This document shows positions 8,657-17,752 of a DNA stretch of 64,000 nucleotides, in pieces (positions within the stretch are counted from its first letter, which is position 1; every line of letters starts with the position of its first letter). The stretch spans positions 620,001-684,000 of the forward strand of contig NZ_CP046452.1 in the NCBI RefSeq assembly GCF_009734385.1. The letters run 5' to 3'. The notes below the pieces were generated by a model. The model was given only the letters and a program-made list of their open reading frames with translations. It made no database searches and was not told where the DNA came from. The position numbers and the translations under genes are program-made. This DNA comes from Corynebacterium kalinowskii. GTDB lineage: Bacteria > Actinomycetota > Actinomycetes > Mycobacteriales > Mycobacteriaceae.

Positions 8657-8962
8657 ATGTATGCGATCGTCAAGACCGGCGGAAAGCAGTACAAGGTTGC
8701 CGAAGGTGACCTCGTCAAGGTCGAGAAGATCGAGGGTGAGCCAGGTTCGTCCGTGGCTCTCACCCCGGTTCTGCTCGTCGATGGCGCAACTGTAACCACC
8801 GATGCTGAAAAGCTTTCGAAGGTCAGCGTTAATGCTGAGATCGTCGAGCACACCAAGGGCCCGAAGATCAAGATTTTGAAGTACAAGAACAAGACTGGTT
8901 ACAAGAAGCGTCAGGGCCACCGTCAGCCACTGACCGTTGTCAAGGTAACGGGTATCAAGTAA
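8657..8962 (+). CDS. rplU: 50S ribosomal protein L21
   Basis: A 101-residue ribosomal protein that binds 23S rRNA. It starts [18 protein letters not shown] and ends in the basic [17 protein letters not shown] segment, both diagnostic of bL21. It is followed after 39 nt by rpmA, the usual rplU-rpmA-obg order. The ribosome-binding site is a purine-rich AAAGGGG that lies in a potential stem (see leader). Confidence 0.97.
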
Positions 8963-9001
8963 GCCGGCAGGCTTTTAGCTTTCCTGAAGGAGGGAAACCA
9001 A

Positions 9002-9268
9002 ATGGCACATAAGAAGGGTGCATCCTCGACCTCTAACGGTCGTGATTCTGAGGCTAAGCGCCTTGGCGTTAAGCGCTTCGGTGGTCAGCAGGTCAAGGCC
9101 GGCGAGATCCTCATCCGTCAGCGCGGAACCAAGTTCCACCCAGGCGAGAACGTTGGCCGCGGTGGCGACGACTCCCTGTTCGCACTGAAGGCTGGCGCAG
9201 TCCAGTTCTCCACCAAGCGCAACCGTCGCACGGTGAATATCGTTCCAGCTGAAGCTGTCGAAGCTTAA
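9002..9268 (+). CDS. rpmA: 50S ribosomal protein L27
   Basis: An 88-residue protein near the peptidyl-transferase centre. It begins [20 protein letters not shown], the unprocessed actinobacterial N-terminus without the cleaved Firmicutes leader. A perfect AAGGAGG-like site (gaaGGAGGgaaacca) precedes the ATG. The rplU-rpmA unit ends at a terminator at 9287. Confidence 0.97.
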
Positions 9269-15876: not shown

Positions 15877-16500
15877 ATGACCGCAGCTCCGCGACGAATC
15901 GGAATCATGGGTGGCACCTTCGACCCCATCCACAATGGCCACTTAGTAGCAGGTTCAGAGGTAGCATCCCGCTACAACCTCGACCTTGTCATCTACGTGC
16001 CTACCGGCCAGCCATGGCAAAAGGCTGGTCGCAATGTGTCCTCCGCAGAGGACCGCTACCTGATGACGGTCATCGCCACCGCGTCTAATCCTTCCTTCCG
16101 AGTCTCACGCGTCGACATTGAACGCGAGGGGCCGACCTACACCATCGACACGCTGCAGGATCTGCGTGAGCTCTATCCCGACGCTGAGCTGTACTTCATT
16201 ACTGGTGCGGATGCCCTCGCACAGATCGTGACCTGGCGCGACTGGCCAGCCATGTTTGAACTTGCTCACTTTGTGGGTGTTACCAGGCCTGGCTATGAGC
16301 TCACTTCCGACATCGATCCCGCCATCCACAAAGGTCGCGTGACTTTGCTCGAGATTCCCGCGATGGCGATCTCCTCGACAGACTGCCGCGCCCGCGCTGC
16401 CACTGGCCGCCCGGTCTGGTACCTCGTTCCCGACGGAGTCGTACAATTCATCAACAAAACCGGGCTCTATGCAACCATTGAGGGCAGTTCATCAGTCTAA
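15877..16500 (+). CDS. nadD: Nicotinate-nucleotide adenylyltransferase
   Basis: Adenylylates nicotinate mononucleotide in NAD synthesis. In its 207 residues the nucleotidyltransferase motif [12 protein letters not shown] is near residues 11-22 and the [10 protein letters not shown] motif is near 166. Length and synteny with rsfS and gpgP match the actinobacterial locus. An unrelated endonuclease-like gene has entered between nadD and rsfS. Confidence 0.95.
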
Positions 16501-16506
16501 GTAAAT

Positions 16507-17394
16507 GTGAAGACATTTACTTTTGACTCTGTTCCTGTTCCAAGCGTTCGTATCTCTCGAGGACTTGTGAGAGTTCGGCCGGGCGCCTATCTGCCAGCTG
16601 ATTCCAGCGTTAACGCAGTGGCGCGCGCCCGCTGCGAACACCTGGCTTTTGGCAAGCTGGTGATCGGCGGATTTGCTGGCTTGAATTATCACGGGATCCC
16701 CTATTGGTCGGAAGTCTTTCCGGTCATAGTGCATAGCCCCAATTCCATTGGATTCGTGTCGTCAGACATCATTCGCTTGTGCCGTTCCAAGGTTGCTTAC
16801 GAGTTTGGGAAGGATCCAGTTTTCCCAAAACTCGCCGTAGCTTCTCCAGCAGTGTGCGTCATAGATGCCCTGATCCAACTCAAACAAGGGCGCATCACCT
16901 GGTGGGTGCCTCCCATCGAGGGCTTCGAACCGTGGGAAGTACGTGCGGTTCAATTAATTGATGCAGCGCGTCGGAAATGTAAAGTGTCGTGGAATCAACT
17001 CGCTGATGCCTCCACTCAACGCTTTTCCAAGACTTCGTTGTTGAAGCTGGCGAAACAAAGCGTCAGTGGGGCCGATTCGCCCCAAGAGACCTCACTTCGC
17101 CTCATAGCAGGGGATCTAGCTCCTAACCTGCAACTACAGAAGGCTGTCTACGACACTCCGCGCTCAGAAATCCCGTTCACATTCATCGATTTGACGTGGA
17201 AAGGACTCAAAGTCGCTGTTTACTATGACGGCGAGGACCACTACAACCGTGAACGCAGAAACAAGGACTTCGCGATCCGTAAGAAGCTCGAAGACCGAGG
17301 TTGGCAAGTAATCACAGTCACTGCTCCCGAACTGGCATTCCCCGAGCAGCTCCGGCGGCGAATCCAAAAAGCCGTTTGGAAAGCTCAGATGTAA
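16507..17394 (+). CDS. DUF559/Vsr-like endonuclease-fold protein, possibly inactive
   Basis: A 295-residue protein whose last ~70 residues (LKVAVYYDGEDHYNRERRN, then RKKLEDRGWQVITVTAPEL) match the actinobacterial DUF559 / very-short-patch-repair-like nuclease fold. In that family the strand before the DG pair normally reads VEYDG. Here it is VYYDG, so a usual catalytic glutamate appears to be replaced by tyrosine. The N-terminal part (residues 1-200) resembles the helical AbiEi-like region often fused to this domain. It lies between nadD and rsfS, which are normally close, and directly before the palindrome array. The GTG start has no clear ribosome site. Confidence 0.65.
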   Translation: MKTFTFDSVPVPSVRISRGLVRVRPGAYLPADSSVNAVARARCEHLAFGKLVIGGFAGLNYHGIPYWSEVFPVIVHSPNSIGFVSSDIIRLCRSKVAYEFGKDPVFPKLAVASPAVCVIDALIQLKQGRITWWVPPIEGFEPWEVRAVQLIDAARRKCKVSWNQLADASTQRFSKTSLLKLAKQSVSGADSPQETSLRLIAGDLAPNLQLQKAVYDTPRSEIPFTFIDLTWKGLKVAVYYDGEDHYNRERRNKDFAIRKKLEDRGWQVITVTAPELAFPEQLRRRIQKAVWKAQM

Positions 17395-17752
17395 TCGGGC
17401 TCATGAGGTGATCGATTGTGATGGGTAAATCTGATTCGGTGGGTGAGGTTTACCCATCATTTGGACGTGCGGATGGGCGAATTGGTGGGTAAACCTTGTG
17501 GCCGTCGAAAGGTTTACCCAGTGCGTTGGGTTCAGTGGGTAAACCTGCCAGCTACTGCGAGGTTTACCCACCATTTGGACTGCCAAACAGCCTAATAATG
17601 GGTAAACCTAAAATCAGCGGTGAGGTTTACCCACCTCCCCACGCCATCCAAACAAAATTTCATCAAAACCCAGCCGCCTCAAAATCCTCCAACTAGCCTT
17701 AATGCCCCTAATCGTGGAAAACTAGGTAGCTAACTACTACCGAAGGATTTTC
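17395..17752 (+). other. Intergenic region holding the palindrome array and rsfS leader
   Basis: No open frame of note. The palindromes fill 17422-17633. After them comes an AT-rich stretch without secondary signals, and then GAAGGA, a good ribosome site, 6 nt before the GTG of rsfS. Confidence 0.7.
17422..17633. repeat. Array of four 35-bp palindromes with fixed 13-nt centres
   Basis: Units at 17422-17456, 17486-17520, 17536-17570 and 17599-17633. Each has left arm TGGGTAAACCT (TGGGTAAATCT in the first), exactly 13 variable bases, and right arm AGGTTTACCCA. Gaps between units are 29, 15 and 28 bases. CATTTGGAC follows units 1 and 3. The arms are conserved base for base while centres and gaps are not, so selection or duplication acts on the paired arms. 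They could be RNA hairpins, a multi-site protein operator or REPIN-like elements. Confidence 0.9.

Follow-up and report, generated by a model that had tools for sequence, protein, structure and literature searches.

The closest described counterparts of the system treated here are the REP-associated tyrosine transposase (RAYT) genes, with their repetitive extragenic palindromic (REP) sequences and the REP doublets forming hairpins (REPINs). The passages cited here report that RAYT genes are flanked by two copies of a palindrome, that several families occur in one genome and that doublets are dispersed (PMC2817692, PMC3116915); in Stenotrophomonas the REPs have a head of the form GT(A/G)G and 2-4 bases at their centre (PMC2817692). 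Also relevant are the endonuclease I-Bth0305I, which dimerises on a target of nearly 60 bp (PMC3943268), and the AbiEi antitoxins, which reportedly autoregulate by binding inverted repeats (PMC7319586). We analysed a stretch of 64,000 nucleotides from Corynebacterium kalinowskii (NZ_CP046452.1, positions 620,001 to 684,000; hereafter the window), in which an array of four palindromes lies behind a nuclease-like gene (Table 1; labels beginning with G denote genomes and those with L loci). We propose that the palindromes are recognition sites, and probably non-autonomous copies, of an element encoded by this adjacent Vsr-like nuclease gene, forming a two-part system of the RAYT/REPIN kind with an unrelated enzyme; our rough probability for this reading is 0.7. 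We think it likely that gene and repeat together constitute a mobile or selfish element not described before. Among the papers listed by our searches of the open-access literature, none described a pairing of this nuclease family with palindromes.

An earlier note on this DNA had described four units with conserved arms, one C-to-T change and a 13-base centre of fixed length and free sequence, beginning 27 bases after a DUF559/Vsr-like gene. All of this was borne out: 100 shuffles of the window gave 0 matches to the unit motif, and the open reading frame (ORF) of the gene stops 27 bases before the first arm. The C. kalinowskii genome (2.51 Mb, one contig) holds 28 units, 27 with N13 at up to 3 mismatches and one with N14 at 468907, and all of them pair into 14 doublets at 11 loci, eight with a single doublet and three with a tandem pair. 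At up to 3 mismatches the search of this genome gave no unit standing alone, and a lone exact arm lies at 792471. The layout of a doublet is arm-13-arm-29-arm-13-arm with a period of 64, and two copies make up the window array. Centres are exactly 13 bases long in 27 of the 28 units and linkers exactly 29 in 13 of the 14 doublets; the gap separating tandem doublets is not constant. The suggestion that centres and gaps are unrelated held for the centres, which carry 0-0.1 bit per column over the 14 elements, but not for the gaps within doublets. There, the 29-bp linker shows partial conservation over about 8 bp at either end (roughly CCAATCCG ... CCAAATGG in the 14 aligned elements), which leaves three free 13-bp stretches alternating with fixed sequence in each doublet.

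The arms are nearly invariant across the genome's units, and their substitutions are uncompensated: 14 of 308 cells are unpaired, and 0 of 22 pairs are altered on both sides. Because the centres are free and the arms nearly invariant and never compensated, the arms look like half-sites in duplex DNA, and reading by a protein fits better than a hairpin stem. Two roles had been suggested for the units. For a protein reading both arms, the expected features are present (fixed length, free centre, uncompensated arm changes), from which we infer binding. For REPIN-like hairpins copied as units, the doublet layout is indeed REPIN-like, but a hairpin copied as a unit is not supported, as the aligned units lack compensatory changes. 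A hairpin, terminator or RNA role was rejected on the same count and because Rfam found only tRNAs at the ten loci outside the window. Among the centres of 13 of the 14 elements, no pair was alike beyond the shuffle range (43 of 300 shuffles attained the best value), and words in common did not go beyond chance. Their mean pairwise identity, 13.4 of 39, lies above all 300 shuffles (mean 11.9), so that a weak residue of likeness remains.

The genome holds three genes of the window family, each adjoining a different palindrome. Two 60-bp GGATTTGG...CCAAATCC palindromes, nearly identical to each other, flank the second (L012) on either side, and one of them overlaps the ORF end; the third (L013) is flanked on both sides by AGCCCGGACGAA-type palindromes with N18. 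The L012 palindrome family recurs at L006:5522 of this genome and in G184, whose gene is a syntenic orthologue of L012 at 58% identity. At L134:4397-4959, also in G184, two GGATTTGG palindromes enclose a segment that, judged by eye, resembles a gene for 3-methyladenine DNA glycosylase; the syntenic C. kalinowskii locus has one palindrome and no such segment, so gain or loss may be bounded by the palindromes. When 400-kb random samples of G184 and G045 were searched de novo for recurring inverted pairs, other palindrome families came to light. For one of them, AGCGTACSGATGGGA-N18-TCCCATCSGTACGCT, G184 yielded 23 exact copies and 241 other genomes yielded none; the spacing is N18 in all 16 copies listed, with N10-26 permitted. 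A copy of this family overlaps the end of a second G184 gene, and another copy begins 66 bp before the gene start; the random stretches of G184 contain 14 copies, one being the gene's own bracketing copy. In another species, doublets flank a second gene.

The link between palindromes and a nuclease-like gene, which the note had drawn from the window, is general across the genus. A profile of the three C. kalinowskii proteins matched 87 of 242 genomes, its own included, at 1e-15; 60 fetched loci (mostly from contiguous genomes, with high scores) and the three own ones gave 63 genes from 28 genomes. Of the 115 gaps adjoining family genes, 40 contained a palindrome with perfect arms of at least 10 and a centre of 8-60, compared with 14 of 149 other gaps; the adjoining gaps are longer, and per kb the densities are 1.17 and 0.45. 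The same palindrome stood on both sides of 20 of the 63 family genes, or of 17 when whole arms were required (three of the 20 then show one copy). None of 610 control placements was bracketed in this way, nor was any of 115 other ORFs (180-700 aa) from the same stretches. When the ORFs in random stretches of G184, G045, G127 and G146 were scanned blindly, 2 of 848 proved to be bracketed. Both have AbiEi matches and one has a sub-threshold MTES_1575 match; they are homologues of each other, and neither matches anything else among 919 ORFs (stretches of G154 added). Since the window-family profile misses them, though it recovers 60 of 60 fetched relatives, and the profile-to-protein comparison by hhalign is weak (E 0.003 and 0.04), they look like a distant second subfamily. 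At L078:11200-12084 (G045) lies a bracketed AbiEi-like gene with a seemingly degenerate nuclease part and no Pfam match.

We then asked how arms relate to proteins across 27 genes with defined arms, 20 bracketed and seven added by hand, the copies of G149 and of G225 being cut to one each. The four gene pairs that share an arm word of at least 7 are the four top-scoring protein pairs by bit score among 351, one of them being the same protein in two genomes; two protein pairs at 62% identity have no common arm word. Further arm copies with the same centre length were present in the same genome for 6 of 12 genes of G184, G045, G127 and G146 (random stretches), the C. kalinowskii sample having been picked for its arrays. 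Across genomes, 5 of 60 cells were non-zero, and three of these five are due to related genes (L012 and L134 reciprocally, and L163 in G146, where the L156 gene is 70% identical). These results bear on the possibility that the gene is a homing nuclease merely targeting intergenic palindromes that host proteins keep for another reason. Its closest fold is that of a homing endonuclease, and REP sequences have been reported as targets of insertion sequences (PMC1525189). However, the arms co-vary with the protein and were found mostly in genomes with the matching gene or one closely related to it. Neither would be expected of a repeat that the host already had, and we consider this explanation quite improbable.

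All 11 array loci were judged intergenic by eye from ORFs, those overlapping arrays being counted as spurious (the longest, 498 aa at L004, overlaps by 26 bp). The contexts include a convergent-gene gap (L008), positions after tRNA genes (L005 and L009) and apparently divergent pairs (L001 and L002; genes named by eye). A further palindrome family of this genome, GAATGAAAT-N17-ATTTCATTC, adjoins two arrays (L001:2948-2982, L002:2866-2900 and L002:2938-2972), with no partner gene seen. The intergenic placement would also suit ordinary extragenic palindromes (terminators, mRNA stabilisers or decayed insertion-sequence ends) with a coincidental neighbouring gene, and a single locus alone could be chance. 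The bracketing and co-variation statistics, the apparently divergent contexts, the uncompensated stem changes and the absence of a T-run past the last arm at the loci read make this account very improbable. The link at the window locus itself is drawn from the 27-bp adjacency, from the families belonging to the other two C. kalinowskii genes and from the general rule; as a rough estimate, one of 11 loci would fall this near one of three genes with a probability of a few per cent.

Intact arms beside nearly saturated centres imply that either selection maintains the sites or every cycle renews the centre. Selected sites, together with the fixed spacing, the uncompensated arm changes, the lack of solitary units and the reported autoregulation of AbiEi, fit a reading without any mobility, in which the palindromes are operators of an AbiEi-like repressor that regulates its own and other genes from paired half-sites scattered over the genome. 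We regard it as unlikely: palindromes also lie behind genes, in the convergent gap and after tRNA genes, where there is little to control, relatives carry other palindromic repeats at some of the same intergenic sites, and the gene is multicopy in two genomes. By eye, the gntR-serS and rpsO-pnp gaps hold a doublet in C. kalinowskii and other palindromic repeats in G184; of the two gaps, only rpsO-pnp has a palindrome in G045. G149 carries at least 9 gene copies, each in a unit of 1.1-1.6 kb, 88-93% alike, and G225 carries two, 99.5% alike over 1,626 bp, which have different flanks and end on a CAGGCAGAT arm. Upstream of the nuclease genes of G149 and G225 we also observed inverted pairs of TTATCCACAGG-like words (L143:6021-6049, L145:6069-6097, L151:6037-6071 and the left edge of L152/L153), which in G225 sit at the left edge of the duplicated unit. 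We take these words to be DnaA-box-like.

The C-terminal domain of the window protein is predicted to have a Vsr/EDxHD-type catalytic fold, matching Vsr and, most closely, I-Bth0305I (PDB 3r3p). E194, D228, D241, H245 and D254 are invariant in 48 of 48 family proteins and may correspond to the EDxHD letters. Two places ahead of DG, where 3hrl has an acidic residue, 47 of the 48 carry F, M or Y. For the N-terminal part the top fold match by Z is AbiEi (10.0, root-mean-square deviation 6.5), with MenT1-type folds near at 8.7. The PADLOC AbiEi profile gave no match for the window protein and weak matches for the L012 protein and the two blind-scan genes. The N-terminal part is thus AbiEi-like at best, and in the random sample of G127 further arm copies were found for 0 of 4 genes; both points slightly lowered our confidence in the proposed system. 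The window gene has palindromes on one side only, the upstream copy being missing. At its start, the stretch about GTCTAA-N-TAAGT-start resembles the starts of the L012, G184 and G045 genes, and the start-region DNA is alike in six family genes from three genomes, which suggests a probable leaderless promoter.

Beyond C. kalinowskii no convincing copy of the motif was recovered in the genomes searched. Among 150 genomes sampled from the genus, no other had it with at most 1 mismatch. Under strict filters, a covariance model built on the doublet found the 14 own elements and no convincing copy in 241 other genomes of the genus, with weak matches in 5 (best E 0.013). Exact arms at spacings of 5-30 gave two stray matches with other spacings in a collection of 84,980 species, from which records near this genome are possibly excluded, and a looser pattern found one single palindrome in G153 and one in G229. 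The note had held that a motif occurring only here and absent from relatives would count against a mobile or operator role; it is private to the species as far as searched, but dispersed in its own genome, and other species have other palindromes beside their own gene copies. The suggested comparison of rsfS loci was also run: in the two relatives closest at this locus, G184 and G045, nadD directly adjoins rsfS, with neither gene nor array. A plasmid or phage origin was rejected, as the arrays were not found there and phage matches were at chance level; the L012 protein, the only family protein searched, was not found on plasmids or phages. A replichore or terminus bias was likewise discarded, the gap at 637-1451 kb being not unusual for 11 loci (rough estimate). 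Elsewhere in the window, 500 bp at 8769-9268 are 96% identical to G045 (L092), with neighbouring sequence at 67-78%.

Table 1. Features of the nuclease gene and palindrome array, in window coordinates.
Feature	Position	Strand	Remarks
Gene of the Vsr/EDxHD-like nuclease family (predicted), 295 aa, N-terminal part AbiEi-like at best	16507..17394	+	between nadD and rsfS
Short palindrome AGTAAATGT-GAAG-ACATTTACT	16500..16521	+	spans the GTG start of the gene
Palindromic units, each TGGGTAAACCT-N13-AGGTTTACCCA	17422-17456, 17486-17520, 17536-17570, 17599-17633		three perfect, one with a single C-to-T
First doublet, 99 bp	17422..17520	- (linker sets orientation)	units 17422-17456 and 17486-17520, linker 17457-17485
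Second doublet, 98 bp	17536..17633	- (linker sets orientation)	units 17536-17570 and 17599-17633, linker 17571-17598
Inter-doublet gap, 15 bp	17521..17535	none	27 bp at the other two tandem loci of the genome

Binding, cutting and mobilisation by the window-family protein are what we infer from these patterns. The N-terminal part would read the 11-bp arms in duplex DNA, and two or four protomers, fixed by the 13/29/13 spacing, would set the nuclease domains over the centre, whose length would matter and whose sequence would not. A centre of fixed length and free sequence between read arms is what a dimeric nuclease would require. Cutting in the centre could then allow repair or recombination to place further copies of the palindrome, alone or together with the gene, at other intergenic positions. 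With somewhat less assurance, we lean towards a broader view in which Actinobacteria hold an independently evolved counterpart of RAYT-REPIN: Vsr/EDxHD nucleases with an AbiEi-like front would each possess, recognise and disperse a palindrome family of their own, built from two half-sites with a centre of fixed length and free sequence in between, and protein and repeat would diverge together at such a pace that the set differs in nearly every species. If true, this would account for one class of palindromes scattered through genomes of a large actinobacterial genus and assign a concrete substrate to the DUF559-like 'endonuclease domain-containing' proteins. It would also provide a second, enzymatically unrelated nuclease that domesticates or parasitises a genome through short palindromes, making the origin of REP-like repeats testable by comparison, and the protein-arm pairs would be natural data for decoding the DNA specificity of this protein family.

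Compared with known systems, the N-terminal part of the window protein has its best fold match by Z in AbiEi of type IV toxin-antitoxin systems, and AbiEi reportedly binds inverted repeats; unlike AbiEi, this part is fused to a nuclease domain in the window family. No AbiEii toxin gene was recognised beside the window gene, whose neighbours are nadD and rsfS (named from the earlier note and the ORFs). With I-Bth0305I and Vsr it shares the predicted catalytic fold and perhaps the E, D, D, H and D that are invariant in its family, whereas its N-terminal part differs and the gene, instead of residing in an intron, has palindromes next to it or on both sides. As in insertion sequences with miniature inverted-repeat derivatives, gene-bearing and gene-less copies have common repeats; here, by contrast, these are whole palindromes and not simple terminal repeats, the Pfam matches of the proteins scanned include no transposase family, and no target-site duplication was seen by eye at the G225 pair. 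Identity with RAYT was rejected, as the Y1 HUH transposase (Y1_Tnp, PF01797) had 0 matches in the C. kalinowskii genome, the control being positive in 5 of 14 genomes. The enzyme here is of predicted Vsr/EDxHD fold, the palindromes have a long free centre of fixed length and no compensatory stem changes, and neither the outer nor the inner flank consensus of the 14 elements holds a GTAG/CGTC tetranucleotide head. Nevertheless, as far as the cited passages describe RAYT/REPIN systems, the likeness extends to a nuclease gene between two palindrome copies (a feature of the family, the window gene having them on one side), to several families per genome, each adjoining its own gene, to dispersed intergenic doublets, and to common repeats among close proteins.
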